A stretch of 64,000 nucleotides of DNA from Rhodamnia argentea (lineage: Eukaryota > Streptophyta > Magnoliopsida > Myrtales > Myrtaceae), in NCBI RefSeq assembly GCF_020921035.1, contig NC_063156.1, positions 25,096,283 to 25,160,282 on the forward strand. Reading direction: 5' to 3'. The notes beneath the pieces were generated by a model. It was not told where the DNA came from. It saw only the letters and a list, made by a program, of their open reading frames with translations, and made no database searches. Below are positions 32,379-56,882 of the stretch, piece after piece; the first letter of the stretch is position 1, and each line of letters opens with the position of its first letter. A program made the translations under genes and the position numbers.

Positions 32379-32429
32379 TAACACGTTCAGAAACATCAAT
32401 TGTGCAAGGAGGGTTCAAGCGTGGACAAG

Positions 32430-34506: not shown

Positions 34507-35844
34507 GGGTCTACGATCCGTATTAGCGAATGTGGGTACACACCTTCACAATAATGTGCCCTAGAGAACAGCCTTCCTCTGCCTAATGTAAGCTTGGTCA
34601 TCAGCATGAACAAATGGCCTCCTTGCACTAGTGATGTTAGAAAAAAAAAACCCTAAGGAGAAAGGAGACGATGAAATAAAGATATTTGCTTTTGTGAGAC
34701 TATTTGATTGACTTAACTGTTCATATGAATTTGACCACATACGAAACTTTTTGTCTGAATAAAAAACAACATGAAGATCCGAGTCAAATCATGACTTGAG
34801 CATGTTAATTATCCTTTAACATAGCCATGATGAGCTAACTAAGACATCTTGGGAAGCATATAAGTCCAAAAGTGGAATTACGTGATGTTCTTATCAAGTG
34901 GATCTTCGGTTTCGCCACAACCATTTGATTAAATTTTCGCCAAACTAGATGGATATCGAAAGCCGGAATTAAATTTGGATAACCTACGACCGCTCGATCT
35001 TTGGCTTTCATTCCCTTAAATATGTTTATGAAGGAGTTGGATGTCCCGGATCGCGAGTCTAATCAAAGGCAATATATTTATTAAATTGATTGGGAGATTA
35101 GCATAGAAAGGTAATATAAGGTACATAAATATTGAATATCAAATGATATAGCTAGGTTTATAAGAACCAGAGCACCAGAATGCAAAATTTATAGCAACGA
35201 TGCAATTAAATTCTAAAGTATTCAAATAGTGCAATCTAGACTCGATCATGGATCTGTCGATCCATAGGCCGGCTCAGCCCACATATGCCAGAAGGGCACC
35301 TTTTCGGCGGACTTGTGCAACGCAATTTACTTGTATAGTCCGGCTCAGCTTAGGCTCACCCTGAAAATTTTAGTTCTTTTCTTTTTTGTTCATGGTCAAT
35401 TTAGGCAATAAATTAGATCCGACCCAAGACCCACATTAATCATCTCTAGTGCAACCGATTCCTAGTGATAATGACATATGAACATGGTGATCCCGCTCAG
35501 ACCCTTTGAAAAATGAAGTTTTGGCTTTCAAACTGGGAATGTCAAGAATATTGTATGATTTTCAAAAGCGTCGTGAAAAAGTCAAAATGATTTTTAGTAT
35601 TTATTTTATACGCACATATTTTTCCAAGGTTAGCATGATTAAAAGCAAAATTCAAAAGTCAGAGTCACCCTAAACGCAAATGTTTATTAACGCCCGATGC
35701 GTGTAATTGTCCAATTTAATGAACCTGGTCATGAGAATGAGATCAACATTAGGCAATGATGAAGAAGGGGATAGTCGATCATTCAAGACCATAACGCCGA
35801 GTCAAGTCAAGGTCAACCAGCTGGTTGGAGTCATTTGGGTTTGT

Positions 35845-36465
35845 AGGGCCCGGAAATACTTCAGAAATTGCATTTCTCTGCCAAAAGCCCATCTAGCAAA
35901 AAAATGTGTTTGATAAAAACCCGATCGAAGTAGAAATCCGTTTGGTAAAAAAATTAACTTCTGATAGAATTTTTCACTTTTGGAAAGATTTTTCACTTCT
36001 AATAGGATTTTTGGCCAATTTTAAGAAATAAAAAATTTTAACTTCTCGACTCAAGAATCACTTCTTGGATTCGACTCAAGAATCACTTCTTGGACCACAC
36101 CCGCCTTCGCCGACCACCGTTGCTGCAATCGCCGGCTGCCGACCACGCCGGCCGCGGCCGCCGACCACCGCCCACCCACCGCCACCCGTCGCCATTGCCA
36201 CCGCCTACCGCCGACCACCGCCGACCATCGCCACCCACTACCGACCACCACCACCGCCGACCACCGTCGACCGCCGCCGCCGAAGATTTTGTTAATAATA
36301 TTTCAAAAGTAAAAATTTTCAATCGTTACCAAACGAATTTTTTTTATCAAAAGTCAATCTGAAGCAGAAGTAGAAAAATCAACTTCTACTTTTGAGGAGA
36401 AGTAGAGAAATCAACTTTTGATCAGAAATTAATTTCTCGTAGAGAAGTGTTAACATGCGCCCCCT
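35845..36465. mobile_element. Non-autonomous DNA element with CCG/ACC-rich core
   Basis: Present in spacer 1 but absent from its copy, where the flanks GGGTTTGT and AGGTGCTGATTTTGACG are joined by four bases (60931-60955). Ends are inverted: AGGGCCCGGAAATACTTC at the left, and the reverse complement of the right end reads AGGGGGCGCATGTTAACACTTC. Inside are repeats of (A/T)CTTCT and TTTTTAT-type, plus a CCACCG-rich stretch (36105-36285) that gives long chance frames on both strands. No clear target-site duplication, and no transposase. Confidence 0.7.
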
Positions 36466-38058
36466 AAGGTGCTGATTTTGACGTAGTCGGACAGATAAAA
36501 ATCCAACGGACGGATTTGAGATGACAATTTGCCCAGTGGGTGAGAAAATGACCATAATTTTGTATCCGTAAAGAGTTACGGGATCTATAATATCAACAAT
36601 TTTTAGCTATTAAAACGATGTATCTATAAAAAATAAAAAAAAAAGCAATAACAAGTTCATACAATCAAAGTAAGTCCAATATATAATATAGTCATAACAT
36701 TGTTAACAAATTTCTACTTGAAAAAAAAAAAAAACATAATCGCACGGTGACACCATCAAAAGTCCACAAAAGCTCGAATTTGCTGCGGGGAGAGAGAGAG
36801 AGAGAAAGAGAGAGCCCTGATTCAAACTAGGCCCATTTCTTTTCTCAGCTCAAAAGCTCCACCAATTCTGCTCGAGAGTTCTAATGATGCTACATGAGGA
36901 ATGTTCTAATCTTCAAGGAGTCTTTTGAAAAAGATTGGCAAACAAATGTTGTAATGCTGTAAAATAAGTACATATTAATCATGATAGCTCAGTTCAAGCG
37001 TCTATTTACTTTGCGGTAGTTTATTCACATTTACCATATGACAAGCTTATGGAAGATGCTCGTGATCTATGGTTGGAATTTCTATTCTAATACCTTAAAA
37101 CCAGTTAGGTTACAACAAACCACAGCTTAACACACAAGTTGTTTTGAGAGAACATTAATGCCTAGAACTTTCTGCAAAGTAGATTAGCAATGTAATTAAC
37201 AAGGAGAAAATACCAAGAACAAAGCAAATAATATGTCAATGTCTCTTGTCTAAATGAGGAAAAATACCAACCTAGCTTACCACTCATCAATCCCTCATAA
37301 ATCTAACTTCGGAAGCAACGATTCATGTAGATCTAGGCGAGGGCTACCATTGTCGGCATCAAACGAGGGTTGCCGACAAAGTTATATCAACTGACATTCC
37401 CAAACAAAGTTATATTCATTTTTTGTTCTTGAGAACAAAAGAATAAGAATTAAAGAATCTGGAGTGTTACCAAACAGACCCTTAAAGCAAAAAAGTTGGG
37501 CTTCTCAAACCAAGCCCATCCTTTTGAGCAAAAACATAATTAAAAAAATCAAGCCCATATTATTGATTTTATTCATCTCTTTTGAAAAAAAATGTCACAT
37601 GGCATACTTGGTTCAAGGGAAATCAAACATGGAACTATGAACATGATGATTTATTGATTCCGAAAATTCGGATTGGAAATCGAACCAACGCTGGTTCCTT
37701 GTCAATGTCATACCGAACTGATCATGGAGACCAGGCCAGTTCCTGATCTCAAGCTAGTCGTTCCGTTCTGAATACAGATGCCAATTCCGTTCATCCCATT
37801 ACCCCTTCTATTTTGTGACCAACTCCATCCCGTCCCCCTAAAAGTAGGCTAAGATCTTTTACATGACTAATTTGTTCTTAAATGCTTGATTTAAATATTC
37901 ATCTATTGTAATTGATCATAACCCTCTACAATAATTTTGTAATTTCGAATATCTTATGTTCTAGCTTCTCGAGTTGACAAAAATACCTAAAACTTTTGAG
38001 AAAATAGTAACTCATTCCACAAAATATCATAGATTGACCAATGACCTATATATATCGA

Positions 38059-38084
38059 GAAAATTATCTAATCAATTCTAAATC

Positions 38085-38121
<37 letters not shown>

Positions 38122-38384
38122 TATTCAGTCCTAATTTTTCCAATTCAGTGCTAAACTCATGCACAAAATTTCAATGTAATCATTATGACCAATTATCACT
38201 AAAAATTGCTTAAGTGGTGATACATACGTGTATATCGTCACGTCAGCGATTTCAAGCGAAAATTGGCCAAAAAAGCCACATTGGAATTATGCGTCAAGGT
38301 TTTAGGACTTAATGAGTAAAATTAAAAAGTTTAGAACTGAATTAGCATCCGTACAATAGATTTAAGATTGATTGGACAATCTCC
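38059..38384. repeat. Fold-back repeat, copy 3, with TA microsatellite
   Basis: Inverted arms (AAATTATCTAATCAATTCTAAATC at left, GATTTAAGATTGATTGGACAAT at right) around the core. A TA repeat lies at about 38088-38117. In the chi4 spacer only the right arm survives (61268-61370). Confidence 0.6.
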
Positions 38385-38849
38385 TCCCCGCTATATCGGA
38401 TTGATTGAGAAAGAAGTAAGAATGAAACGTCGGATCGGGGGCATAAAGCATATTCTGAAAACAAGCTTGGCATTTCAAAGTCCAAGCCAACGTCGGATCG
38501 GGCGTAGTGCCCTTCATAAAGTAATACATTGGATAATTGATTCTGCACTAACCCCGTTGGATGAGGCATAGTATACTTTGGACGCAAGATTGCCATTCCA
38601 AAGTCAAAGTCAAAGCTTTGGTAATCTCTCCAGATCCTACAATCAAGGGGTAGATCACAAAAAATAAAGCGGTGCCGAGCATATTATAACTAGTCTTCTC
38701 CACCAATTTGGGATTCTTCCGTGCGCTAACGGTGTAGAAAGATTAACTATTCGAGTAGGGATTAGGCGCTGCTACGTATTGCGTACACAAGTTTTTCTTA
38801 TTTCGGTAAATGAAATCATTCCATTTGCAGATGATAATTTCAGGACGAT

Positions 38850-39478
38850 TACGAAAAAAGTTCTAAAACTATAACAATCGGTTCAATTTAGTCATGAATC
38901 TTTTTTCTTTTGCAATATTGAGTCCTAAATATATTTTCATTTATATCAATTTAATTCATCCAGTCAATTTTTGCGAAAAATAGCATGCATGAATGTCGGT
39001 CGTCCCATGTGGCGCGGTCCGCACTAACGTTGACAACTTTTAATTATATTTTAATTTTTTTAATTTTTTAATTTATTCTTTTTTTTCTTTCTTTTTCTCG
39101 TTTTTTCTTCTTCCATTCTTCCTCTAGCCAGCCGAGTTGAATTTTTTATTTATTCATTTCTTTTTTCTTTTTTTCTTTTTTTTTCTTCCCTTCTTCCTTT
39201 AGTTCCGTTGACTGGCTAGAGGAAGAAGTGAAGACACAAAAAAAAGAAAAAGAAAGAAAGAAAGAAAGAAAGAAAAGAAGAAAAATATTAGAATTGTCCA
39301 TATCAGCGTCTGCGGACATTCATATGAGCGATTTCCAATCAAAAAATGGCTGAATTGATTGAATTGACGCAAACCCAAGAAATTTAAGACTCAATCAACC
39401 AAAAAAAAAAAAAGGAGACGGGTGTAGGACTGAATTCTCATAATTACAATACGTTTAAGATTTTTTTGATAGTTTTCC
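38850..39478. repeat. Fold-back repeat, copy 4
   Basis: Inverted arms (AAAAAAGTTCTAAAACTAT at left, GATTTTTTTGATAGTTTTCC at right). The centre is a T-rich then A/G-rich inverted pair (CCTCTAGCCAGCCGAGTTGA against GTTGACTGGCTAGAGGAAG). The copy at 61828-62450 is its sister. Confidence 0.65.
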
Positions 39479-39750
39479 TCCAGAATTTCCATTTCACGCC
39501 TGCCAGTATAAAAACTGATTTTATATGGACAACGTACTTTGTCCGAATCTACATGATCAATACATTCGGTAGTGACATAAACCGCATACGAGGGTATTTA
39601 TATATAAGACTGGAGTAATACCAACATCACAAGGACATCCCACTTTATTGAACAGAGTTACGCCCTCAAATTCAAAGTGCGACGGTCAGTCATCCTCGTC
39701 CTACGTAATTGTTCACATGCATGTGTAAAGTTTTTGTCCCCTCACTCCAC

Positions 39751-39824: not shown

Positions 39825-40905
39825 ATGAATCGGAACACGCTTCTCGCCATCCTCGTCGCATGCTTCGCCGTGGTCGCCTCGGTCGCGCCGCTGGTGACCG
39901 CCCAAAACTGCGGATGCGCCGCCGGCCTCTGCTGTAGCCGGTACGGTTACTGCGGGACCAGCCACGCCTACTGCGGGCCGGGTTGCAAAGCCGGCCCCTG
40001 CAGCACCACCGCGGCTCCGCCCGCCACTGGCGGGGTCGTGGTCGGCAACGTCGTCACCGCCGCCTTCTTCAACAGGATCATCGGCCAGGCAGCTTCCAGC
40101 TGCGCCGGGAAGAAGTTCTACTCGAGGCAAGCGTTCCTCAAGGCGCTCGGTAGCTTCCCGAGGTTCGGGCGGGTCGGGTCGGTTGTGGCCTCGAAGCGGG
40201 AGATCGCCGCTTTCTTCGCTCAAGTCACGCATGAGACCGGACGTAAGCTCCGTCCTTTTCATGCACGCTCTCATTCTTATACACCATGCAATATTAGCTT
40301 TGGATGCATAAAATTAAACTTTTAAAAATAAACTTTATTAAGATCTCCCTTTTCTAACCTTGTATACATTTATCATGGCATAACTATTTCCAAATCTAAG
40401 GGCACGTGTCATCCATCCAACCACCGAATGATTCAATAATAATTCAATACCACATGACTCAAAAGAATTTCAATACAATGCTTATACATGCGTTCTTGCA
40501 GATTTTTGTTATATCGAAGAGATAAATGGGGGCACCTACTGCGACCCGAGCGCGAAGCAGTACCCGTGCAAACCAGGCAAGAAGTACTTCGGCCGAGGGC
40601 CCTTCCAGATCACGTGGAACTACAACTACGGCGCGGCCGGCAAGAGCCTCGGGTTCGACGGGCTCAACTCGCCGGAGACCGTCGCGAACAACCCCGTCAT
40701 CGCCTTCAAGACCGCCCTGTGGTTCTGGACGAGGAACAACATGCAGTTCAAGCTCTCAAGCCAAGGGTTCGCTGCAACGATCCGAGCGATTAACGGCGGA
40801 GAGTGCAACGGGGGGAACTCAGCAGCTGTTCGAGCCCGGGTCGCGTATTACACTAATTATTGCAAGCAACTTGGGGTTACACCTGGCCGTAATCTCTATT
40901 GTTAA
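39825..40905 (+). CDS. Class IV chitinase chi2, type B
   Basis: Secreted GH19 endochitinase. Exons 39825-40242 and 40502-40905, 273 aa. Signal peptide about 1-26 ([18 protein letters not shown]), CBM18 starting [18 protein letters not shown], linker, then the GH19 domain. Catalytic E137 (HETG) and E146 (HFCYIEE) are present. Residue 133, His in the other three copies, is Gln here (AQVTHETG). The loop after EEI is shorter than in chi1 (NGGTYCDP), giving five residues fewer. The C-terminus [14 protein letters not shown] is intact. The 259-nt intron has stop codons in every continuation. The ATG after the TATA box and before the signal peptide was chosen over an upstream in-frame ATG at 39795, which would add ten residues and spoil the signal peptide. 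Confidence 0.95.
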
Positions 40906-41873
40906 GGGCTCTTGGTCGGGATTAATCAATGTGGGTTACAAACATTGACAATAATGTGCTCTAAACACAGCCTTTCTCCGCCAAATGTAGCTTGGTAATC
41001 AAGGATGAAGGATGATGAAATAAAGATGTTGCTTATGTTAAGCAATTTAATGACCCTTTTGATTATTCGATTTACGTTATCAGATATTCAGAAAAGTACA
41101 ACGTAAATCCAAATTAATGGCATCACACAGAGAGAGATCTTAGTCAAGATGAGCTAAGTAAGACATTTTGGGAAGCACACGAGTTCAAAAGTGACATCAA
41201 GTGCTGTTCTTTTCGAGTGGATCTTCAATTTTGCCGCCTCCAATTGATTTAATTATCACCAAATTAGATAAACATCGAAGCTAGAGTAATGGAAAATAAC
41301 ACAAATGATTCCTAAATTTTAGTTCGACATGCAATGTCATCTTTGGACCTTTGATTTATTCAATATGATCCGTGAACTTTGATTTAACGTACAATGTTGT
41401 TTCTAAACTTTTAATTTCTTTACTGTGGTCATTAAACTTTGGGAAAATTTCAAAAAAGGGCCCGAAGTGGCTCTTTTTCTCAAATAAGGGCATAGAGTAA
41501 ACATCGTTTCAAATGAGAGCCTGAAGTGCTCAAATTATTTCAAAAAAGGGTCTATTCAAAGGGCATTTTTGTCTTTTAATCTTTTTGCCTTTTCTTTTTT
41601 GTTTTTCTTTTTTTGTCCCCTCTCCTCCCCTCCTGTTCATCATCTCCCCAAGCACGACTTCTTCAAGGAATGTCACCGAAAGATCGCATCGCTCGTTGCC
41701 CACCGCCATCGCCACCGACTCCCCAAGCTCGCCGCTCCTTTGACCTCCCGCTTGGCACCCATCTTCACCCTCGGCCCGGTAGCCCACTCCTCTTCCTCCT
41801 CCCGCCGCCGGGCTCTCGCCGTTGACGAAGAGCTACTCTACAAAGCTCTCTCGGTCTCTCACAATCAATGCAT

Positions 41874-41878
<5 letters not shown>

Positions 41879-41938
<60 letters not shown>
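41879..41938 (+). repeat. CT microsatellite
   Basis: About 30 uninterrupted CT units inside the Pack-MULE, probably in the captured leader of the GH28 gene. Confidence 0.95.
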
Positions 41939-41942
<4 letters not shown>

Positions 41943-42220
41943 GTCTTCTTCTTCATCGGCTTTACTCTCCTCCAGAATTGCTCACATCTTCCTCTCATTA
42001 CTCTCCTTAGATCATCACCTCCATAAAAATGCTTCGTCCGAACTCTTCGCCACTGTCCTCCTCGGCTTGATCTGCCCACCAAATCCATCTCCGGTCCCCC
42101 AATCCCACCCCCTAAACCACCGATAGAATCTCAATCTTTCTCATCGTCCGTGACATCTTCCCTCTCGTCACGCCCACTCTTCACAACGTCTTACCCCGAG
42201 GAGCCGCCGAGAGCACGGGA

Positions 42221-42600
42221 ATGTCATGGTCGTTGGCTTCGGCCGTTGTCCCGTTCATCGCCATTGCGATGCTATTGGCCGGCATCTCGATGGCTGCGAA
42301 GGAGGAGGAAGTCGTCACGTGCTCCGGCGTGGTTCCGATGAGCGACCACATGGACAGGATCTCCATCGTGGACTTCGGCGCAGCCGGCGACAAGCGGACA
42401 CCGAACACCAAGGCGTTCGGGGAGGTCGTGTACTAGATTCGGCACCTGCACCGGCCCAGCGGCATGCTGCTGTACGTGCCTTCCGGGGTGCACTTGACGA
42501 AGAGCTTCAACCTCACGAGCCACATGATGCTTTACTTGGCCAAAGGCGCCGTCATGTGTCATCAAAGCCACTCAAGTAAATTCTACTCTTTGGTACGAGC
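42221..42600 (+). pseudogene. Captured 5' exon of a polygalacturonase-like (GH28) gene
   Basis: One frame reads a hydrophobic N-terminus (AVVPFIAIAMLLAGISMAA, signal-peptide-like) followed by RISIVDFGAAGDKRTPNTKA, FGEVVY, a stop (TAG, 42434-42436), then IRHLHRPSGMLLYVPSGVHL and TKSFNLTSHMMLYLAKGAV. This is the start of plant GH28 pectinase-like proteins (the FGAxGDGxTxNTxAF motif). After about 42590 the frame runs into the inverted repeat without a stop until about 42815. All catalytic motifs of GH28 (NTD, DD, HG) lie in missing downstream exons, so no enzyme could result. Confidence 0.8.
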
Positions 42601-43423
42601 AGAAGGCGACGGAGAGAAGCGGGCCGCTCGGCCGAGAGGGAAGATGGGTGCCGAGCGGGAGGTCGAAGGAGTTGAGCTTGGGGAGTCGGTGGCGGTGGCA
42701 GTATGCAATGAGCGATGCGGGTCTTTCGGTGACATAGAGGATGTCTTGGGGGAGATGATGAACAGGAGGGGAGGGAAAAAAAATAAAAAACAGAAAAGAA
42801 AAAGGCAGAAAGATTAAAAGATAAAAATGCCCTTCAAGTAGGCCCTTTTTTGAAATAATTTGAGCACTTTAGGCCCTTATTTGAAATGATGTTCACTCTA
42901 GGCCCTTATTTGAAAAAATGAGACCACTTCGGGCCCTTTTTTGAAATTTTCCCTTAAACCTTAGCTCATTTTTCGAGGTGATCCTTTAAGTTGACAACAT
43001 TTTCATATAGTCGAGGGATCTTATTGAATATTTCCCGATAATTTAGTGACCACATTTAAGAAATTAGAACTTTAAAAATGATATTACACATTAGACTAAA
43101 GTTCATGAATCATATTGCACAAATTAAAAGTTCCTGGACTAGTTGTGCTATTTTTCCAACAATGAAACATGAATAACCGGTGACTACCTGATCTTTGCTT
43201 TTGTTCCCTTAAATATTTTTTTGAAGGGGTTGATTGCCCCGGATCTCATGTCTACTCAAAGGCAATATATCTATCTACTTGATTAGGAGATTAGGAGAAC
43301 AAGGCGCTGTAAGGTACATAATTATTGAATATCAATGGCAAAATTATAAACAAAAGAGCACCGTACTAGGAGAGAATTAACACTCGCAAACCTATTATAA
43401 TGATGTCGATTTAGTCATAATGT

Positions 43424-43502: not shown

Positions 43503-44617
43503 TCTGCATACGACTTGGGGAGAGACAATAACATGTGTTTTCTCCTAATGTAAGCCCAAAAATGAATGAGATGTGGCTTAAAGTCAAGAAGTTGGACTTC
43601 TCAACTCAAGCCCATCCTTTTGAGCACACAAAAAAAAAATCAAGCCCATATCGTTGGTTATGATTCTTCTCTTTTGGAAAATGTCATATGGCATGCTTGG
43701 TTCAAGGGGAGTCAGTCATGGAACTATGAACATTCTTTTGTTCGGTAGAGATTTACAAGATCCGGAAAAAAATCGGGACCGTGAATCGAACCGGCAAAAA
43801 GATTGTGTAAATTTCAGAGTCACCTTTTTACGGCATAAGATTCTTTCTATTGAATACAAGAATCGCTCGTTGTAAGAGCGTGCTTCCATGTCGCCACCGT
43901 GCCTAGCCGACCGTGGCGACCAACCTTGTTCCCAATCTCAAGTTGGCCGCTCCAGTCCATACACATGCGAGAGGAATTACTCTAAAGTTGTCAATTCGGA
44001 GCATACAACATTTCGGCGTTTGAGGTCTTTTCCTTTTAAAGTTCAAATTATCGAACTGACAAAACTGAAAACAACTCGTCATATCTTCAGTTATATCTCC
44101 CTTTCGTCTCGTCCAAATGCAAAGGTAGAAATGCCGGTTCCGCTCCATTTTAGTGCCCATTCGATTCCCCAATCAACTCCATCCGGTTGCACCAAACGCA
44201 GCCTAAGGTCTTGTATTTTCTGTTCAAACCAATTATAGTCGACCGTGTCCCTTTACAAACAAATTTTGTAATATTCGAATCTCCGCCTGCTCCTTGATCA
44301 GTTGACTAAAATACCTATTGACTTTTGACCAACTCAGAGCAACTTGTTCCACAAAACATCATAGGCTGGCCACTGGCCTACGAACGCATTGAATCGGTCG
44401 TAGCACTTGGCATATTTTGGACACGAGCCTTGCCATTTCAAAGTCATCGCCTGTCGTCTCTCTTGGTCGTGCAATCACGGCGTAGATGATATAAAATAGG
44501 GCCGTGCGCTGCCCACCTATTAGAATCGGTCTCCATAAAATTAGGGTGTACATTTGGTACACTAACACGTTCAGAAATATCAATTGCGCAAGGAGGGTCC
44601 AAGCCTGGACAAGGAAG

Positions 44618-45005
44618 AATTGTCATAATAAAAAATAAATAAAAAAACATGTTGCACCTTGCTAATTCAGTTCTAAACCTTTTAATTTTGCCAATTGAAT
44701 CCTAAACATTATCACATTTTGCCAATTAAGTCTATCCAGTCAATTTTGATCGAAAATCACCGATTTGGATGCCGTCCATCCTACATGGCATGAGCGGCGT
44801 AAACGTGGAGGATTTTTTTAGTAGTATTTTAACATTTTTTTTGAATTTTTGTATTTTTTTTTCTTTCTTTCTCTCCATCTTTTTTATTTATTAATTTTTT
44901 AATTGGCAATACTTGAAAAGGTTTAAGACTCAATTGATAAATTAAAATATTCAGAATTGAATTAGCAAAAGATCAATAGGTTCAGAACTTTTTGGATGAT
45001 TTTCC
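44618..45005. repeat. Fold-back repeat, copy 5
   Basis: Sister of 32430-32820 in the chi1 module, with the same arms and T-rich centre and scattered substitutions. Confidence 0.65.
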
Positions 45006-45531
45006 CATCATTGATAGGTATATGATCTTTAATTTCGATAAACAGATTCATTAAGTCGACATAGATGAGTGTCTCGATTTCATGACTGCCTTTGTCAAAA
45101 ATATGTTACACCAATAGTGTGCCTTGTACATTTACATAAATTAGATCATATTTACTCTGCATTTAATAAGAGTATGCCACATAACTTAATACTGTTGGAC
45201 TGTGATTCACACTCCCCAACGATAGAAAAGCATGTAGTTCCCACTCATGAATTTTACATTGGCAACTTGGGCTTGTTTCATAAATAACTACTGCTACATA
45301 TACTCTTTTTCGCTTGTCATTGAGTGATGTAACGAAAGGCACGAGGTGCTAATTATACTAAAATCCGTTGTTGGACGTAGCCCTAGTTTAAGGGTAAACC
45401 AGAATAAAATCTCGTATCTCGATTTTTTTTCTTTCTCATTACGTTTTACTTTATTGTGATTGTGTGTTAAATCCTAAGAAATACATTGACGGAGTATGTC
45501 CTCCAATTGCAAAGTCTAGGTCAGTCGGGTC

Positions 45532-45608
45532 TAGACATAGCCATATGGAACCGTGGGTCCGGAACCGGCTGTTCCACTTTTTTTAGGAACCGGAACCGGC
45601 CACGTCTA
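45532..45608. mobile_element. 77-bp mini-element in the chi3 promoter
   Basis: TAGACATAGCC at the left and GGCCACGTCTA at the right form 11-bp inverted ends (9 of 11 match). Perfect 8-bp duplications GTCGGGTC flank it (45524-45531, 45609-45616). The chi1 promoter has the site once (about 33359-33367), so this is an insertion. It lies about 105 bases upstream of the chi3 TATA box. The GGAACCGG-rich interior resembles other hAT-derived fragments. Confidence 0.88.
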
Positions 45609-45711
45609 GTCGGGTCAGCTCATTCTGCTCAGTCCACATGCATATGGAAATTTATGTCCTCATCCATCAAAATTCCAATTCATCAAAGGACTAAGTCACC
45701 CATCATTCTGC

Positions 45712-45719
45712 TATAAATA
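45712..45719 (+). promoter_or_regulatory. TATA box of chi3
   Basis: TATAAATA, 75 bases upstream of the ATG at 45787, with leader identical to that of chi1. Confidence 0.75.
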
Positions 45720-45786
45720 CACCCTGCCCTTCTCTTCGCTCAGCATCGCAAAGTTAATACATTGTCCCAAACATACTTCTATCGCC

Positions 45787-46755
45787 ATGGACCGGAACGC
45801 GCTTACCGGCATCCTCATCGCATGCTTCGCCGTCCTCGCCTTGGTCGTGCCGCATGTGACCGCCCAAAACTGCGGGTGTGCCGCCGGCCTCTGCTGCAGC
45901 CGTTACGGTTACTGTGGGACTGGCCGCGACTACTGCGGGCCGGGTTGCCAAGCTGGCCCCTGCGACCCAGCCGCGGCCCCGCCCGCCACTAACACGGTTG
46001 TGGTTGGCAACATCGTCACCGATGCCTTCTTCAATGGGATCCTCAACCAGGCCGCCGCGAGCTGCGCCGGAAAGAGTTTCTACTCAAGGAAAGCGTTCCT
46101 CGACGCCATCAGTAGCTTCCAGAGGTTCGGCCGGGTCGGGTCGGTCGACGACTCGAAGCGCGAGATCGCCGCTTTCTTCGCTCATGTCACGCATGAGACT
46201 GGACGTAAGTTAGACTTGTCTTGTTCTCTCCTGTTCATGCATGTTCTTATTCTTGTGCACCATGCAACATTAGTTCTGATATATAAACGAATAATTTGCA
46301 GTTTAAATAAAATGCTTAGACATTTCTCCTTTGCAGGTTTTTGTTATATCGAAGAGATAGGTGGGCGAACAGACCCGAAAAAGACCTACTGCGACCCCAA
46401 CGTGCCGCAGTACCCGTGCAAGCCGGGCAAGAAGTACTTCGGCCGAGGGCCCTTCCAGATCACGTGGAACTACAACTACGGCGCGGCCGGCCAGAGCCTC
46501 GGGTTCGACGGGCTCAACTCGCCGGAGACCGTCGCGAACAACCCCGTCATCGCCTTCAAGACCGCCCTGTGGTTCTGGACAAGGAACAACATGCAGTCCA
46601 AGCTCTTGAGCCAAGGGTTCGCTGCGACCATCCGAGCGATTAACGGCGGAGAGTGCAACGGGGGGAACTCAGCAGCTGTTCGAGCCCGGGTCGCGTATTA
46701 CACTAATTATTGCAAGAAATTTGGGGTTACACCTGGCCGTAATCTCTATTGTTAA
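45787..46755 (+). CDS. Class IV chitinase chi3, A/B chimera
   Basis: Secreted GH19 endochitinase. Exons 45787-46204 and 46337-46755, 278 aa. The promoter, signal peptide, CBM18, linker, intron and first part of exon 2 (to about 46425, including GRTDPKK) are type A, near-identical to chi1. From about 46432 onward ([46 protein letters not shown]) and through the 3' flank it is type B, like chi2/chi4. Catalytic E137 and E146 are kept. The intron-split codon 140 is Arg (HETG-RFCYIEE) where the other three have His, directly next to the catalytic segment, which may lower activity. The intron (132 nt) is stop-free as in chi1. Otherwise intact. Confidence 0.95.
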   Translation: MDRNALTGILIACFAVLALVVPHVTAQNCGCAAGLCCSRYGYCGTGRDYCGPGCQAGPCDPAAAPPATNTVVVGNIVTDAFFNGILNQAAASCAGKSFYSRKAFLDAISSFQRFGRVGSVDDSKREIAAFFAHVTHETGRKLDLSCSLLFMHVLILVHHATLVLIYKRIICSLNKMLRHFSFAGFCYIEEIGGRTDPKKTYCDPNVPQYPCKPGKKYFGRGPFQITWNYNYGAAGQSLGFDGLNSPETVANNPVIAFKTALWFWTRNNMQSKLLSQGFAATIRAINGGECNGGNSAAVRARVAYYTNYCKKFGVTPGRNLYC

Positions 46756-47440
46756 GGGCTCTTGGTCGGGATTAATCAATGTGGGTTACAAACATTGACA
46801 ATAATGTGCTCTAAAAACAGCCTTTCTCCGCCAAATGTAGCTTGGTAATCAAGGATGAAGGATGATGAAATAAAGATGCTGCTTATGTTAAGCAATTTAA
46901 TGACCCTTTTGATTATTCCATTTACGTGATCAGATATTCAGAAAAGTACAACGTAAATCCAAACTAATGGCATCACACACAGAGAGATCCTAGTCAAGAT
47001 GAGCTAAATAAGACATTTTGGGAAGCACACGAGTTCAAAAGTGACATCAAGTGCTGTTCTTATCGAGTGGATCTTCAATTTTGCCGCCTCCAATTGATTA
47101 AATTATCACCAAACTAGATAAACATCGAAGTTAGAGTAATGGAAAATAACACAAATGATTCCTAAATTTTAGTTCGACATTCAATGTCATCTTTGAACCT
47201 TTGATTTATTCAATATGATCTGTGAACTTTGGTTTAACGTACAATATTGCTCTTGAACTTTTAATTTCTTTGAAGCAGTCCTTAAACTTTGGTCCTTTGT
47301 TCGATGTGGTCCCCCAAGTTTGAAACATTTTCATATAGTTTAGGGATTTTAATGAATATTTACCAATAGTTTAGTAATCATATTGAAGAAATTAAAACTA
47401 TAAGAACGACATTGAATATTTACCAATAGTTTAGGGCTAT
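46756..47440. other. chi3 3' flank, type B
   Basis: Nearly identical to 40906-41440 and to the visible part after chi4. It has a poly(A) signal at about 46868 (GATGAAATAAAG) and the empty site for the Pack-MULE at 47282-47290. Similarity to the chi2 side continues to about 47400. Confidence 0.75.
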
Positions 47441-48060
47441 TGTATTTTTTTTTTTGTCCCAACTTGGTCTCTTGGAGTTCTAAAAAGCAACCAAATGTTG
47501 CTCGATCTAGTCTTGAATCGGAATATAAAGAGGCGGCTAATGTAGCTTCTGAATTGTTATGGCTATTACAACTCTTTCGAGATCATCAATACACTCTTCA
47601 TTGAACACCACTTGTTCTTTGTGATAATATTAGGGCAATATATCTGGTTGCAAACCCCATCTCCCATGCAGACCAAGCACGTGGAAATTGACTATCATTT
47701 TGTTCATGATTTAATCAATAAAAAGAAGTTAGCAGTTTGCGTCATTCATACACAGGTGCAAACGGTTAATATTATTACAAAGCCTCTATCAATATCCAGG
47801 TTTCTTATTATGCGTGACAAGCTCACAGTGATATTGCCACCGTTTCGCTTAAGGGGGTGTGATAAAGCAAATCCTCCATCATTTGTGTCGATTTCATTAA
47901 TTGAGTCAATCTTCCATGATTTGCGTTGATTCCACTAATATAACAAATCTTCCAAGAATTGCGATGATATTGTATATTCTTACCTTCTATAAAATCTTGT
48001 GTACATGTTATAAATATAATACAAATCGCTCTCACTTTTTAATCCGTAATCTTACGGTTA
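47441..48060 (+). mobile_element. Ty1/copia retrotransposon fragment: RNase H end plus LTR start
   Basis: After a T-run, 47515-47860 encodes the end of copia pol with a frameshift. In one frame it reads EYKEAANVASELLWLLQLFR, then LVLCDNIRAIYLVANPISHA. In another it reads TKHVEIDYHFVHDL and INKKKLAVCVIHTQ, then the terminal FLIMRDKLTVI. This is followed by a polypurine tract (TTAAGGGGG, about 47850) and TGTGATAAAGC, the probable 3' LTR start, which runs AT-rich to about 48060. 5' parts (gag, integrase, RT) are missing. Confidence 0.75.
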
Positions 48061-48199
48061 ATGGTTGAATTCAAATCCTTGCTCGTGTGGCAAGTTACGG
48101 ATTCGGAAAATAAAATTTTCCTAATCAACCTGTGCTCTTTTTTTTTTTTTTTAAGAAATCCATCTTTATGCAAGATAACACAATAAATGCTCTGATATT
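48061..48199. other. Short unassigned stretch between copia fragment and hAT-type element
   Basis: AT-rich, no feature except a T-run. It ends in the left copy of the element's target duplication (48192-48199). Confidence 0.4.
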
Positions 48200-48818
48200 T
48201 AGGGGTGAGCATGGTTCCAGGGTAGAACCGAGAACCTGGAACCGGAACCCGTAGGATACGGTCCGGTTTTAGGTTCCAATGTATGCGGGGTAGGTTCTAG
48301 GTTCCAAAAATTGATAAACCTGTTCCAACGGGTAGGTTCCAGGTTCCACTACATAGAACCCGGAACCTGGAACCTGGACCCTAGATTCTGAAATAAATTT
48401 TTATATTTTTTTTTTGTATATATTTTTGCACGATCATACAATGTTCTATGGCATCCGATGATGAATGTATGATTTGGAGCCAAAAATTTTTTTAGGTTTC
48501 GTGTTCCAATGGATTGGTCTCGGGTTTTAAATGTAACATGTACAGAGTCTAAAATCACTCACCTCTACTTTCTCTTAGATGTTATAGCATTCACTCTCAT
48601 TTTGCTTAATTAAAAATGAAAAAAATAAAAGAAAATAAAAGAAATTGATAAGTTCTCGGGTACCCTGGAACCGACCCTAGAACCTGTGACGGGGTAGGTT
48701 CCAGGTTCCAAAGTATGACGGGTAGGTTACATGTTTCGAAAAATAAGGAACCTGTTCCGACGGGTAAGTTATAGGTTCCAAGTGAAACCTGTAAAGAACC
48801 TGGAACCGTTCACCCCTA
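48200..48818. mobile_element. Non-autonomous hAT-type element, GGTTCC-rich
   Basis: Ends TAGGGGTGAGCATGGTTCC and GGAACCGTTCACCCCTA. Exact 8-bp duplications CTGATATT flank it (48192-48199 and 48819-48826). The interior has clusters of GGTTCCAGGTTCC at both ends and an AT-rich middle without transposase. It shares its end (AGGGGTG) and architecture with the element at 31689-32378 but uses another motif. Confidence 0.9.
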
Positions 48819-48826
48819 CTGATATT

Positions 48827-49200
48827 TGCAAAATATGCTCCAAGATATGCAGCATTCAGAATATGTAAAACATCCTCAAATTAATCAAATTTCGAGATAG
48901 AGAATGTACCTTGTCTTTCGAAGATTGCTTTTCTCTTTCCCTTTTTTTTACTTGCACGAAAATTGCAGCTCGAGCTAGGACCCTTTGAACGCGATCTATG
49001 GGGCTCACGTGCGGCGATGGTGAGAGTTGACGTGGGCGAGAGGCCAGAGGCTCAAACGTCTACGATGATGCTCAAGGTATTTACCGCATGCACCCCAACT
49101 GGACCTCTCTCCAAAGCTTCACCGAATGCAACCTCAGGATTCACTTAATCAACATATTAGACTTGTAGGTGAGTAGCAAAAGAATCTAAGTTTTAGACTC
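48827..49200. other. Unassigned segment
   Basis: A GC-richer open stretch at 48963-49148 (+) begins right after a polypyrimidine tract and CAG, like an exon acceptor. Its protein (begins MQLELGPFERDLWGS) resembles nothing I know. It may be a gene scrap. Confidence 0.35.
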
Positions 49201-50502
49201 TGTTGACCAAGCAAAAAGACAAAAATCACCAAAGGAGGTCACTTTTTGGGATGATGGCACTATCGCTTTCTTCTGAAGTTGGACACCACACTGGAAAGCC
49301 TTCAATGAACCCAGAACAGCAGATTTGCGGACAAGGATACCAATGTAAGAAGGCTCAGCTTATGCACGTCTGGACAGCGGCTCCATCGTCAAGAGTGGAA
49401 TTCACCTCAGTTTTGGCTCGATCGTGTCATGGCTGGGATCGTTGGAGTGGTTTGCGACAAGGATCACCGGGCCAGCAACGAACTAGGTAGAATCACAGGG
49501 AACACGGGACCGAGCCGTCGGCGTCGCAGAACACCGGGATTTGATTCTCGCCGAAGGGGCTTTTCTCGGTTTTGATTTGGCTAAAAATCGAGAAAAAACT
49601 TTCAAACTCGCTCTCACTTTTTGCCTCTCAAAATCTCAAGTGCATTTTTGGTGTTTCTGAATGAAAATGGATTCACTCCCACGTATACTCTCAAATGGTG
49701 GAGCTCTCAAAACCCCTTTCTCTCGCTCTCTGATCGTGGACCTCTCTGGACGACTCCTTTTTTTTCCTCCCAAAGGCCCCCCACTGGACGTAGACCCCTT
49801 CTACCTCTCTGATTTTTCTGCCCCCTCCACACTGGATGAAGCCCCTCACTTTTTGACTTTCCCGAACGAAGCTTCCCCCTTTTTGGTTTGTGAAACATCC
49901 TTCTTATAGGCGAGAGCTTTTGGGCTCCTGAGGAAAAGACGGGATCTCGTACCAGACTCATATTTTATAAAACCGAAAATCTTTGTGAATCATTCTCATT
50001 GCCGAAAATATATGGCCTTCTTAACTGCAGGAGATCTGAAGGTATGTATCCTCAACATCATTTGACTGAGTCTTGCTATACCTAAAAGCGACGAGGTTTG
50101 CTCTCTTCGTTTTATATTTGGTACCCCAATACAAATGTGCGCATAGGTTGATTCAAATTATTTCTCATAATCTATCCAAGTTCGGCACCCCACGTGCAAA
50201 AATTTCAACCATGTTAAATGATTAAAGAACCTTGCTATATTTTCAATTTGTGAGGCTAAGTTTAATCAAATTTCAAAACCACGTTGCCTATGTTCACCCA
50301 CCGTCGATCCGAATAAAAATGTAAATGCAATGTGATGAATGCTAAATTAAACCAATCTAAGTAAATGTGATGAATGCTAAGTTAAACCAATCTAAGTAAC
50401 AACTAAATGATTTTAATATTTTTGTTAGAGACTAATGTTAGTCCCTAATTTTTATGCAAAAACTAATGACTAAAAAGGATAGTTAAAATTTAGGTGTCAA
50501 CA
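49200..50502 (-). mobile_element. Probable 3' LTR of the Tat/Ogre-like element (incomplete)
   Basis: On the minus strand it starts TGTTGACACCTAAATTTT at 50502, directly after a polypurine tract. The first about 50 bases match the 5' LTR, as do blocks around GAAGCTTCCCCCT (49868 and 59027 on +). Elsewhere the two differ strongly. The end expected about 2.8 kb on (GGTCGCGACA) is not found, so it is truncated at about 49.2 kb or belongs to a related but different element. Confidence 0.5.
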
Positions 50503-50520
50503 GCTGCCCCTCTTTGAGTG
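50503..50520 (-). other. Polypurine tract
   Basis: On the minus strand CACTCAAAGAGGGGCAGC sits directly before the LTR start TGTTGACACC, the expected place of the plus-strand primer. Confidence 0.65.
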
Positions 50521-50947
50521 GAGGCTCGCAGAGGTTTCGCTCAAAGACAAAATTGAGCCTAAATTTTGACAATGCAAAAGATGAATGAATTTTTTTTTTT
50601 TTTTGCGGGGCTTTAATCCCAATTTTCAAATGCAGTGATGCATGATATGCAAAATGCAAGCAATAAGGAACGTATGCTAAGGCTTCTTACTTCATGCGGA
50701 GCGGTAAAAGAGCCTTACATACGGGTCACATACAAAAAGCGCCCAAGTGAGGGGAAGCTTTATAATGCTTGAACTCCCTTGATCTTCAAACTTCTATTCT
50801 ACTGGAAGTAAGGTTCTCAAGGTACATGGTTGCCTGTCTGTTACCTGTAATTTCCGACGGATGCGAAATAGCGCATGATATGATTTAAAAAACCATTTGA
50901 AGAAATGAGAAACGTGTTGCCTATACCATTGGGCAATCACGAAAAGG
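50521..50947. other. Retrotransposon internal region beside the 3' LTR
   Basis: Untranslated-looking AT-rich sequence between polypurine tract and tandem-repeat block. It has a T-run at 50590-50604. No motif. Confidence 0.5.
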
Positions 50948-51345
50948 ACCATGCCACCTATTCCACTGGATGAACATGAGGTTGGTTGTGCTGCCTATTC
51001 CACTGGGCAGACACGAAGAAATATGTCACCTATTCCACTGGGTGAACATATAAGAGGGATCATGTCGCCTATTCCACTGGGCGAACATGAGATGGATTGT
51101 GCTACTGTTCCACTTTGGGTAAACAAAAAATATGTCACTTATTCCACTGGGTGAACATATGAGAGGGATCGCGTCACCTATTCCACTGGGCGAACACGAA
51201 ATGGATTGTGCTACCTATTCCACTGGGCGGACACAAAAAATATGTCACCTATTCCACTGGGTGAACATATGAGAGAGATCATGTCGTCTGTTTCGCCGGG
51301 CGAACACGGAATGGATTGTGCAACCTGTTCCATTGGGTAGATACA
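50948..51345. repeat. Tandem repeat with a three-monomer higher-order unit
   Basis: Eleven monomers share CCTATTCCACTGGG(T/C)GAACA and are 34-39 bases long. They fall into three types by their ends: one with GGATTGTGCTAC, one with AAATATGTCA, one with GAGGGATCATGTCG. The order is fixed, and trimer starts at 50960, 51071, 51180 and 51290 give periods of 111, 109 and 110 bases. It lies in the 3' untranslated part of the retrotransposon. Confidence 0.92.
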
Positions 51346-54239
51346 AAAAGAGAAATAATGAAGAATAATTTAGGAGACGTACCCGAATTCTTCTTCTGCT
51401 ATAAAAAATGACAGAGCTAATTGTCTTGCACTTGTTTTTACCCGAGACAGGGTTAAAACAACACACGCACACAGGCAAAGAAAACAAAATTCATGAATCT
51501 GCTCGCATCACCAAGCTTCTCTGGGGAATTTATCAATGAGAAAACAGTTTCGTCCTTTTGATAATTTGATCACATTAAATGAGGGGCTTTCAATCAGAAA
51601 GGACTTTCCACTCGCTCTCAATGAAAGGCTTTAAACCCGACCCTTTATGCGGGTAAAAGAATCACCCAACCTCTCTTCATCGTGCTTGATGAGGGTCTGG
51701 ATATTCTCGAAATTAGTATGACCTAACCAATCCGAGAGGTCTTTTAAGGGACTGAAATGCAGGTTTGGTCAAAGTTTTAACAATGGGGACTCATGAGAGT
51801 CATGGCTTTAAAAGAGTTGACATCATACATTGCCCCGGGTTTACAAGTCGGGAACCCCGCAAAATGAGATAGAAAAATCTTGCTCGCACTTCTTCGAGCA
51901 ACATTTATAAGCATTTAAAACTCTACGTTAACATAAGTGCCCTAATCTAAAGAGACTTTAATAAGGGTTGTAACGTAGGTTTGGGTAGGTTTGAAATGAA
52001 TGGCCTATTTTCATCAAGAGGGTATCATTTGAGGAAACTGGGGATTGGTAATCATTTACCAGGCTTTCATCACGGATTTTCGTTACGGCAATTTGTGAAC
52101 TCCTTTTGGGATCCTTTCAACTAATTTCTTTCTGAGAAGCAATTTTGCACATCAAATTTTTTTTTCTTTTTAGAGAGAATTTTAATCTTTGAGGAGTTCT
52201 TTCTCTCTTTTCTTTTTTTTCAAGAGAATTCGGTTTCTCTTTTTTTTTTTTTTAGAGAGAGAGATCTTCTTTGAGAGAGAACTTTGCTTGATGGAGTCCC
52301 CTTGCGCCTTTTCTTCGACTTCTTCTAAGCTTCTTCCACTTGCCCCAAAACTTTTTGAGCTTGCTTTGAGCTACTTTCATTTGTTCACCATGGGAATGAT
52401 CACCAATCGGGTTGAAACGAATCCATCGCTCAAATTGTGTATGCAAAAGGGTATAGTGTGTAGGGAGATAGAAACAAATGCTCTTCGTCATATCGAAGGC
52501 ACTCAAGCTAACACAGAATTTGCATGCAGTAAATATGCTTGAAGATTGATGCAAGTGAAAGCAAGAAAAATTCTAACCATTTTTGAATTTCTGAAATATT
52601 GCCCCAATGTGGGGTTGTTTATGACAGGGATAAGAAATAAATCTCCGCTCAAAGGGGTTAAGCAAAGGATAACCTGTAGTGTTTAGATAGCAGAAATGAA
52701 TGCCCCTCATCACTTTGGTCATCATACTTTTCTCGAGATAACCCTTTACCTTGTCGGCACGGAAATTTTCACTCAACTCGCACTGGGGATTAATAATCTG
52801 GACGTGTATGGAAATGGCTTGCCTTTCGTCATCCTAATGTCTCTCATTTAATATGATCATTTCACAAGAACCAAACAGACTACATTATCAAACCTTTTCT
52901 TTCAATAAAACATGCATGGAATTTTGCATTATATGAGCATCTTTTAAGTATGCAAAATGTAGCAATTTGGATCAGCTTGTCATGTTTCATGAAAAACTTG
53001 TGCATTTTCTTAATTTGAACAAATTATGCAAGCATATTCAAATTTGTAAGAAAATCCTCTTGGATTGGGCGATCATAGATTGCCCCCGAACGAATCAAAC
53101 AAGTCGGTGAGTCTGTTCCTTGAGTCGAGAAGTAGCTTGCTCCTGAATCCGCCCTAGTATAAAGAGAAACATGCACGAAACAAGTCAAATGAAGACTTTG
53201 AGATGCCCTGGCTTGTTTAACAGTGACGACCATCATGGTCAGTCATATGCCCCCGTAAAAAAAGTAAAGTGTCACCTTCAAAATCGAGTAGGTTGAAGAG
53301 AAATATACTTCCTCTTTAAGGCCAGGGTTCACTGTCGATTTGCCCCATTTTTGTTGGGGCAGGCTCTGTCAAGTACCCATAATATGGAATTGCCCCCCAG
53401 TTATGCCCCACATTGAAAGTTTGACTTCCGGCTTTTAGCGGAGACTTCACTTCTGTTCTCGATCCCGCAAGAAGAAAACAAAATGTCATTTTCAGAATTT
53501 GTCGAACTCTGTAGAGATACTCCCTTTGAGGTCGGGTGGCCTTGGTTTTGCCCCGCCTTCCGTCGCCTAATACAGCACGATCGAAAGATTGGTTGAGGAC
53601 AAATCATGGATTGCCACAAGCGGCCAACAAACTAGGATTAGCCCGGGATTTCTAGCTTGCTTTAATGCTCGACAATCATGTGCGGGGTTGTCCTGGGATG
53701 ATCGAGCTTGTGCATAGTTAAAGTTAAAATATTCCCTTTTGCCCATAAACATATAGTAGATGGATCAGTAAAACAAACAAGGTTAGACCGCATGCCAGTA
53801 AATTTTTTTCAAAAAACATATATTTTTTTTCGAACACCTTGGGACGAAAATTCTTGAGAAGCCCAACCCTCGGTGCTTACCATAGATGACAAAATCTTCA
53901 ATCGTTGGTTATCGTCATCGGGTTGGTTTGAGATACTTCACCAAGATTTCAAAATTTAATGAAAAACTTCTGTAATTTTATTGATATCAAATCAACGAAT
54001 TACATCTTATTGAAATGGAAATCCTAAAGTGCAATAAGAAATAAAAAGGGAAATCCTAGAAAGCAGTAAAGGTTTCCACGTAGGGGAAATGAAAAGACTA
54101 AAAAATGATTGCTATTGAGGGCCAACGCCGTCTCCATCAATGACTCTTCAAATGTCGATCGAATGATTTAGTAGTGGGTTGTTCTGCACATTGGGTTTAC
54201 CAGCCGATTGAAATGCAATGCCCCGGTTTCAAATAGATC
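51346..54239 (-). other. Retrotransposon internal region without recognisable pol
   Basis: 2.9 kb between the tandem repeat and gag. Only short frames. T-rich, CTCTT-rich low complexity at 52155-52270. I searched both strands for RT (YVDD-like), integrase (HHCC) and RNase H signatures by eye and found none. Confidence 0.55.
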
Positions 54240-55538
54240 CTAGATGCGATGCTTGAGTACAAGACATTCATCGACCGAATGACCCATTTCGCCGGAATGA
54301 TAATCACACTTTTTCGTGGGATCATACCTAGGATACTTCGGGGGATTGGGACGTTGCGGCTCGGAGGACAATAGACCCTTCTTTCGTAAAATAGCCAAGA
54401 CTTGAGAAAGTGACATAGGGAGTGGAGTAAACCGGCGAGGTTTGCGCCGCTGGCGTAGGTTCCGTTGGCTTTGCTGCCCATAAGAGGTCGGCTGTTGGGC
54501 GGTGAATTGTAACTTCGAGCCCCGAGCTGGTGCCTTCTGTGCATAAGTCATGTTGACTTCGGGGACGGATTCCTTCTCCTTCTTACCGAAAAATCTCTTG
54601 CTAGATGCACCCGACTCACCGTACCACCCCTTCTTGAGCCCGGACTCAATTTCCTCTCCCATGGAAATGAGCTCACTAAACGTTCGGACCACCGTAATTA
54701 GCATGCGTGAACGGACTGCGTGCGGAAGAGTCGATACAAATATCTTCATCAAATCTCGCTCCGAAGGTTCGGGCATAATCTGTCCCGCCATGTTCCTCCA
54801 ACGAGTAGCATACTCCTTTAGAGTTTCGCCTTTCTTCCGCTCGGCTCTCTCCGGATCTTCCCGTGTAATGGTGACATCAAGATTGAACTTAAAATGCTTG
54901 ACGAAAAGGTTCGCCACCTTTTCCCATGAGTCCTTCCGGTTAATTTGATGGTTAGTGTACCACCTCATCGCAGCATCCTTCAAACTTGCTTAGAAAGTTT
55001 GGATCAAGAGAGGTTCATTAGACATATATCTGCTCATGTGCCCCTGGTACATCTTGATGTGTTGAATTGGGTTTGAGGTGCCATCATACTTATCAAAGGT
55101 CGGCATCTTGAATTTTTCGGGCACTTGAACCCGGGCAAAAATGGACAGATCAACAGGCGGAACACTTTGAGTTCCCTCTACTTCTCGCAACCTCGGGTCG
55201 AGCTTTGCCAACAACTTGACATTCTCATCATTTAAGTGCGGATGATGAACATGGGTTGCCGGAGATATACTAGTATCGATCAAAATGACATCATCCAAGT
55301 GAAAAGTTGGGTCAAGATTCACCGCATGAGCCTTGTCGGCACGACGACCTTGGCGAGCTGGAGGTGGAATCTCGGATCGAGAGCCAACATTGACTTGCTG
55401 CTGCTTGGCCATGAAATCATTCATCATCTTGGACATGGTAGCCGCAACATGTTCATTCATTGCATTCATGTGTTCCTTCAGCTTTTCATCGATCATGGCC
55501 GCAATCTCAGCCTGATTGGCCATCCTTCTCTTTGTCAC
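54240..55538 (-). pseudogene. Gag polyprotein of a Tat/Ogre-type retrotransposon, interrupted by an in-frame stop
   Basis: Reads on the minus strand from 55538. N-terminal part with a coiled-coil-like start (DEKLKEHMNAMNEH), then VPEKFKMPTFDKYDGTSNP, the capsid motif, ending at a TAA (54990-54992). The same frame goes on with LKDAAMRWYTNHQINRKDSW, FKFNLDVTITRED, TLKEYATRWRNMAGQI and a zinc-knuckle-like CDYHSGEMGHSVDECLVLK, and stops at a TAG (54240-54242). Family proteins continue past both points. Both stops differ by one C-to-T change from glutamine codons, as methylated-cytosine decay would give. The capsid part is otherwise well kept. Confidence 0.85.
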
Positions 55539-56861
55539 CGACCGAGTGTTATAAGAATGTAGAGGATCAATAGTAAATTACCTAAAAAAAAAAATTGATC
55601 AAAATGAATATAACAAGTAAAAATAGCGAGTCGGTCCATGACATCCTCTAGACCCCAAAACGAAATAAAGGACTAAATCAGGAAATTTCCAACTTCATCG
55701 ATCCTCACAAGAAAATTCATATCAATTCGAAAAGTGGTTGAAAGAAAAGGTCACATTTACGAACTTAAAGTCGAATTGATGATGAAATAAATCAATAACA
55801 TTCACATAAGACCGGAAGGTCGGTCCGAACAATAACCCATAAAATCATGAAATATAATTACAACTGGATGAAACTAACTAAGAACAAAACAATGACTCCT
55901 AAACATGGCAATCAAGTCGTTTTTCTCTTCTTTGTGAGGACACGATCTATAGACGAACGAGCCTCCAATTCTTTCCGAAGTCGTGCATTTTCCTTAGTCA
56001 AGGTCTCCATTTCAACTCGGCCTTCGGAACGTACACGAAACGGAGATCTGAATGCCCCATTGTCTATAGATCACGTGCCACAAACCTAAGTATCATGGAT
56101 CAACCCAAAAAAAATAACATAAGACAGGATAAAGTTCGGGAGCATGCATTATCGTAGGATAGGAAGATAAACAATCACATGGACATGCACATGATTCGTG
56201 AGTTAACCTTATTCTATCTATCCTAGAGGCTGACAAATTGAGGCGAAAGACTTGCGGCAAAGCGACAATCTCGCGCACATAATCAAGATTAATCGTAATC
56301 CTACGATGTAACCAGGATTAACCGGGTCATTTCACTTCGGCTTCTCGAGTTAAAAATCATAACTCTTGCTTCGGTAATCCTACCAGGCATGAGTTCTAAT
56401 TTTTGAAACTCATTTTTGGAAAAAGATTCGGGATTGAATTTGGACTAACTTTTGACCATGATCCCACGGTGAACGCTAGAACCAATCTCAACACCATCCT
56501 AAAACTAGTGGCTCGGGTCCAGCCACAGGTTATTGTGTGGTGTAATGCTAAAGCAATTAATCATGCACAACAAATAATATGCAAACACCGCTTCAAAAAT
56601 TGCAAGAAATAATCACAAAAATTCCAAACTCCAATCCTGCAAAACAAAGGGGTTAGCCACACACTCCACCCCTTATATCTCCCATCTGCAAGACCATCTA
56701 ACACAAGGTTAAGAACTTACCCGGAGTCCAATTGCCAAACAAAAATGCAGTTTTTTTTTTCATGAAATTGTCCGCCTAAGTCCACTAAGGTTCCTTTTAA
56801 TTCTTCCGACAACTAAAGTGATTAATCAATCAATTTTATTTCGAAAGAATTAAGAAACCAA
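55539..56861. other. Retrotransposon leader between primer-binding site and gag
   Basis: Untranslated leader on the minus strand. Short open frames without resemblance. No further motif. Confidence 0.5.
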
Positions 56862-56879
56862 TCTCCATTGGAGTCGCCA
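56862..56879 (-). other. Primer-binding site for tRNA-Arg
   Basis: TGGCGACTCCAATGGAGA on the minus strand, starting three bases after the LTR end. The first ten bases complement the 3' end of plant tRNA-Arg (GGAGTCGCCA), the primer known for Tat/Ogre elements. Confidence 0.65.
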
Positions 56880-56882
56880 AGC

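Follow-up and report, generated by a model that had tools for sequence, protein, structure and literature searches.

Sequence comparison confirmed that chi3, the third gene of a four-gene array in Rhodamnia argentea, is a predicted class IV GH19 chitinase gene with an open frame that is of type A at its 5′ side and of type B from within exon 2. The array lies in the 64 000-nucleotide stretch analysed here (the window), on a 30 Mb contig (C7) of a genome of 346.7 Mb in 74 contigs, and it comprises four two-exon genes that all run in direct order on the (+) strand. These are chi1 (type A, 33538–34506, exons 33538–33955 and 34088–34506, a 132 bp intron, 278 aa), chi2 (type B, 39825–40905, exons 39825–40242 and 40502–40905, a 259 bp intron, 273 aa), the A/B hybrid chi3 (45787–46755) and chi4 (type B, 62793–63873, exons 62793–63210 and 63470–63873, 273 aa). 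Splice sites of all four were placed by hand from the alignment, and the spliced chi3 frame of 278 residues bore out the original prediction that this gene stays open. The chi3 intron is itself open in frame, with a length that is a multiple of three. A search of the plant's own genome found these four genes as the only near copies among 40 scored of 285 candidates, and the next gene matches in that scored set were 70–74% alike and located on contigs C1 and C10. Contig C1 carries a second tandem class IV chitinase pair, about 15 kb apart, with matches at 365140–366064 and 379975–380899 (L012 and L013).

To locate the switch we aligned the four genes with their flanks, an alignment that is gappy against chi1 beyond 46860, and took as diagnostic those sites at which chi1 differs from a state shared by chi2 and chi4, after removal of gapped columns and of sites with unlike bases in chi2 and chi4. 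Up to 46425, chi3 had the chi1 state at 110/122 diagnostic sites, as expected from the claim that promoter, exon 1, intron and exon 2 to this base follow chi1; from 46433 onward it had the chi2/chi4 state at 191/194. A strict count within exon 2 past the switch gave type B at 40/40 diagnostic sites. The 12 sites ahead of the switch at which chi3 departs from chi1 are scattered changes found in chi1 only, next to 10 found in chi3 only, and so do not look like patches of type B. The check proposed with the original prediction, a four-gene alignment followed by a recombination scan, returned a single break: MaxChi on 316 sites placed it at 46425|46433, and 0 of 20 000 permutations gave one as strong. 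Together with the trees described below, the site tally and the scan uphold the reading of chi3 as an A/B chimera.

On the (+) strand, the type-A portion of chi3 consists of a promoter-proximal region (45608–45786), which at 5/179 differences to chi1 is of type A as had been claimed, exon 1 (45787–46204) with the hevein domain and catalytic Glu137, the intron (46205–46336) and the first part of exon 2 (46337–46425) with catalytic Glu146 and a GRTDPKK loop. Seven bases that are the same in all four genes follow (46426–46432), and the type-B part of exon 2, carrying Thr182/Trp183, then runs to the stop codon (46433–46755). Type B had been said to begin with an AAG codon at about 46431; the codon is there, but it occupies 46432–46434, and the first base in the B state is 46433. 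The two sides had also been called near-identical to their donors, and this likeness proved uneven, with 24/507 coding differences to chi1 on the 5′ side but 0/132 in the intron, and 9/323 and 6/323 coding differences to chi2 and chi4, respectively, on the 3′ side.

The original prediction mapped the switch to about six bases. Diagnostic bases at 46425 and 46433 do enclose only the seven invariant ones, but the interval that is secure once states are polarised is wider. Using three paralogues from C1 and C10 as outgroups, we found the last A-side polarised states in chi3 at 46405/46406 (clear) and 46425 (probable), and the first B-derived states at 46453 (probable) and 46462 (clear). Because 46433 cannot be polarised with these outgroups, the secure interval extends from 46406/46425 to 46453/46462. 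Pooling clear and probable sites, and leaving out the unpolarisable ones (22/72 before and 13/40 after the switch), chi3 carries B-derived states at 0/24 polarised sites before the switch and at 14/14 after it, and A-derived states at 21/26 and 0/13, respectively.

Trees of the exon sequences, built separately for the 5′ and 3′ parts with outgroup paralogues, gave the two halves different relatives. A phylogeny grouping both halves with one type had been named as evidence against the chimera; instead, the 5′ part joined chi1 with 96% ultrafast bootstrap and the 3′ part joined chi2 and chi4 with 97%. For the 5′ part, placing chi3 inside type B was rejected (AU 3e-7), and a placement as sister of chi2+chi4 stayed unrejected (AU 0.059), which counts against the mosaic reading. 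For the 3′ part, chi1+chi3 was rejected (AU 0.023), and the nearest B gene to chi3 was left undecided among three placements (AU 0.68, 0.53 and 0.36). We also considered chi1 as the mosaic in place of chi3 and rejected this, as chi1 and chi2 are similarly alike in both parts (70/418 differences in exon 1, 47/323 in exon 2 past the switch).

The 3′ flank of chi3 was predicted to be B-like for about 530 bases. It is B-like, but ordinary flank accounts only for 46756–47140 (+), and a dispersed transposable element begins at 47141. This element is present as a long copy of 1.87 kb with terminal inverted repeats behind chi2 (41291–43157), as a shortened copy behind chi3 (47141–47440, the right end at about 47440 placed by eye) and, again judged by eye, as about 60 bases of its two ends in the flank of chi4, at the same site in all three flanks. 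Of the other matches in the genome, ten were compared and 10/10 matched the transposon, with starts between 47133 and 47168, six of them between 47137 and 47143. The element is absent from both type-A flanks, that of chi1 and an orphan copy starting at 59716. Occupation of one site in three B flanks thus gives the chi3 flank a B identity that goes beyond point differences alone. B sequence continues on the 3′ side of chi3 without reverting to A as far as 47292, lies within the transposon to about 47413 and is followed by repeats. Between chi3 and chi2 the transposon part is more diverged (15/154 differences) than the flank before it (12/383, p=0.003); 11 of the 15 differences are transitions, as expected of a methylated transposon, and this excess therefore does not date the event. 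Convergence or constraint behind the B-like 3′ part was considered as well. At the start of the 3′ UTR, chi1 differs from chi3 at 30/103 bases and from chi2 at 31/103, and since this stretch is unconstrained and the shared transposon is noncoding, we rejected that explanation.

The array is repetitive and the locus is known here from the assembly alone, as would suit an artefactual join of chi1-like and B-like reads. Such a join sits poorly with the coding differences given above between chi3 and each of its presumed sources, with the shortened transposon copy that chi3 has to itself and with a longest identity of only 23 bases between chi1 and chi2 or chi4 in exon 2. Nor did the 40 scored of 285 candidates include a further near copy that could have been the source of the reads, and we regard an assembly join as very unlikely.

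Self-comparison of the region showed that a block consisting of a type-A gene, a spacer and a type-B gene has been duplicated in tandem within the array. The type-A upstream flank of chi3 (43505–45531) matches pieces of 30571–33367, 5′ of chi1, with 8.5% and 12.1% substitutions; the A 3′ flank at 34634–35844 matches an orphan flank of the same type that lies between chi3 and chi4 (59716–60937, 62/1210 differences to the chi1 flank); and the B gene with its flanks at 38283–41318 matches 61266–64286, of which the positions above 64000 lie just past the window. Overall, block flanks differ by 5.1–12.1%. A–B spacer sequence survives in both blocks, as the stretch from the type-A 3′ flank of chi1 to the chi2 promoter (34634–39700) and as pieces of it in 59716–62668. 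This bears directly on the event first proposed for chi3, one unequal crossover that joined neighbouring A and B genes and deleted the spacer between them. That event accounts for an A flank upstream and a B flank downstream joined at one switch, after which no A sequence is seen as far as 47292. It also predicts loss of the spacer, but A–B spacer sequence is found both between chi1 and chi2 and, beginning with the orphan A flank, between chi3 and chi4. To accommodate this, a since-collapsed third block, or re-joining of a fused haplotype with an intact one, would be needed, and we consider a spacer-deleting crossover rather unlikely.

The duplicated flank also bears on plain gene conversion, in which chi2 or chi4 sequence would have replaced the 3′ part of the second A gene at unchanged copy number. 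The greater likeness of the chi2 and chi4 3′ ends relative to the rest of their blocks agrees with conversion, and the accessible part of one rice survey reports converted tracts as long as 1237 nt (PMC2277409). However, simple conversion would leave a single copy of the flank, and the B flank of chi3 at 46992–47129 is homologous (82%) to the orphan A flank at 59907–60044, so that two copies of these flank positions lie downstream of chi3. The tract would moreover span at least 860 bases (46433–47292) with no far A-type edge seen; recipient sequence, which should border an internal tract on both sides, borders chi3's on one, although a later deletion could have removed the other edge. Plain conversion is thus an unlikely sole explanation.

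The stretch from chi3 to the orphan A flank (47441–59715) is rich in repeats, including some that occur elsewhere in the genome. A copia-like fragment was called by eye at 47546–47926, for which Pfam matched no family, and a retrotransposon gag ORF lies on the minus strand at 54240–54989, scoring 27.0 bits against a cut-off of 24.1 (23.5 when read from the first start codon); Pfam gave no meaningful family for 54990–55577. Two LTR-like ends, at 50502 and 59715, share similarity across 54 bases only, and the orphan A flank starts directly after the second. Ends this unlike suggest that two retrotransposons have been joined with loss of the sequence between them. No type-A gene was found in front of the orphan flank: at E values up to 1e-3, 47441–59715 held no piece of the chi1 gene, and the upstream region of chi1 gave one 22-base match only. 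A dispersed 0.6-kb repeat at 48200–48820 has its partner, 86% alike and in opposite orientation, at 65494–66126 past the window, so that the two flank the chi4 block.

Divergence between the copies was compared for the two sides of the switch. For the 5′ coding part, dS was 0.138 between chi1 and chi3 (omega 0.17) and 0.107 between chi2 and chi4; in the 3′ part it fell to 0.055 for chi2–chi3 and to 0.041 for both chi2–chi4 and chi3–chi4. With 5′ values this similar and 3′ values lower, the simplest reading pairs the A half of chi3 with chi1 as block partners, in the way that chi4 pairs with chi2, and has the type-B 3′ ends homogenised later. Between chi2 and chi4, 3′ synonymous sites and flank differ at 11/488, compared with 29/503 for 5′ synonymous sites, promoter and intron (p=0.006) and 120/1399 far upstream (p=3e-7). 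Such excess similarity at the 3′ ends, with which the 3′ part of chi3 groups, requires more than one event. The two halves of chi3 itself are not separated in depth, either by synonymous sites (15/119 versus 4/76 or 3/75, p=0.14 and 0.07) or by synonymous and noncoding sites together (20/430 versus 16/459 or 11/458, p=0.40 and 0.10). On the 5′ side the likeness of chi3 to chi1 is patchy, with a near-identical intron and near promoter (0–1/232 for the intron and 100 promoter bases versus 115/950 in the upstream flank, p=1e-10 using 1/232) yet a coding dS of 0.138. Intron identity between chi1 and chi3 spans all 132 bases, compared with 26/117 aligned differences between chi1 and chi2, and may mark a conversion patch of its own. 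The visible switch may be no more than the border of a later conversion tract, with an older first exchange before that.

The persistence of spacer sequence in both blocks makes it most likely that chi3 arose by an exchange that added sequence. We suggest that an ancestral block of type-A gene, spacer, type-B gene and B flank was duplicated in tandem, giving rise to chi1–chi2 and to a second A gene with chi4. Within the second block, the A gene would have recombined with a type-B 3′ end in the conserved exon 2 stretch from KPGK to YFGRGP, and from there the B side extends past the stop codon and through the 3′ flank into the B-flank transposon. The exchange could have been a duplicating unequal crossover of the second A gene with chi2 carried by a sister or homologous chromosome, or else one-sided copying, by strand invasion and then joining. 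Gene conversion would afterwards have maintained the similarity of the type-B 3′ ends, and the sequence between chi3 and the orphan A flank would have been lost through transposon insertions and deletions. A crossover with chi2 predicts chi2 as the 3′ donor, but the trees leave the B donor undecided; a duplicating crossover also predicts an extra upstream region and A gene, neither of which was found in 47441–59715 at E values up to 1e-3. Duplicating crossover or one-sided copying followed by transposon-linked loss nevertheless needs, as we judge it, the fewest extra steps, and we give it a probability of roughly 60%.

Plant chitinases are antifungal enzymes, and domain and structure searches place the predicted chi3 product among those of class IV. 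Read with the in-frame intron, chi3 contains an N-terminal hevein domain (PF00187, 34.3 bits, cut-off 27.8) and a GH19 domain (PF00182, 146.7 bits, cut-off 25.5), and the best three PDB matches of the spliced protein, 4mck, 3hbd and 5h7t, are class IV enzymes. The first of these we take to be the maize class IV chitinase. As in these plant class IV GH19 (PR-3) enzymes, which include Norway spruce Chia4-Pa2 (3hbd), hevein and GH19 domains are combined in chi3; the three structures have Ser at the water-positioning site, unlike the Thr in the type-B part of chi3, and its A part has a longer loop (GRTDPKK) than theirs. The accessible text on BcChi-A gives a triad of Glu61, Glu70 and Ser102 and places Trp103 in contact with the −2 sugar (PMC7844276). 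In what is available of a second paper, the usual water coordinator in GH19 is Ser or Thr, the residue given for chitinases being Ser120 and that for endolysins Thr130 (PMC8547705). By motif and spacing, chi3 has both catalytic glutamates, E137 and E146, nine apart like E61 and E70 of BcChi-A, and a water-positioning residue, Thr182 before Trp183, in the place of Ser102. The motif FQITW, with Thr at the water-positioning site, occurs in the type-B genes and chi3 (40502–40905, 46433–46755 and 63470–63873); Ser stands there in chi1, in each of the three paralogues on C1 and C10 and in those class IV relatives of solved structure that were compared. The original prediction gave chi3 a type-B substrate cleft, which holds for Thr182, Trp183 and the remainder of the domain but not for the two glutamates and the extended GRTDPKK loop, which come from the A half. 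The cleft is thus a hybrid and not of type B. Judged by its sequence, chi3 is expected to encode a class IV chitinase that is secreted and to be driven by a promoter of type A, and the hybrid enzyme, with its mixed cleft, is plausibly active. A bolder idea, that the array is an active recombination factory joining A promoters and hevein/Glu halves to homogenised B cleft halves, with chi3 selected for a changed substrate preference brought about by its hybrid active site of A glutamates and B Thr182, strikes us as quite unlikely.

The chi3 chimera is better backed than was first claimed. It is a well-resolved instance of something familiar, namely the non-allelic recombination by which plant tandem arrays form chimeric genes or change in copy number. 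In the available text on the soybean CHS locus (PMC6710647), exchange between tandem paralogues changes gene content, as in the chi array; unlike the case described there, chi3 is an open-frame coding fusion in a chitinase array with its event type partly resolved. Patchwise homogenisation of paralogues, including disease-resistance families, is likewise shared with the accessible part of the rice survey of interlocus gene conversion, but the B tract of chi3 runs past the gene into flank and transposon and is longer than the 130-nt rice average given there (PMC2277409). Among the papers listed in literature searches, neither the titles nor the visible beginnings of abstracts described a chimeric class IV chitinase. 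The value of chi3 is that its switch has been narrowed down to a few tens of bases, that a transposon marks the B flank independently of point changes and that the surviving spacer sequence discriminates between competing recombination models. It is a clean example of defence-enzyme diversity arising in tandem arrays, and, should the hybrid prove to be expressed and active, one could ask directly which GH19 half sets substrate preference and whether the A-type promoter sets the response of chi3.
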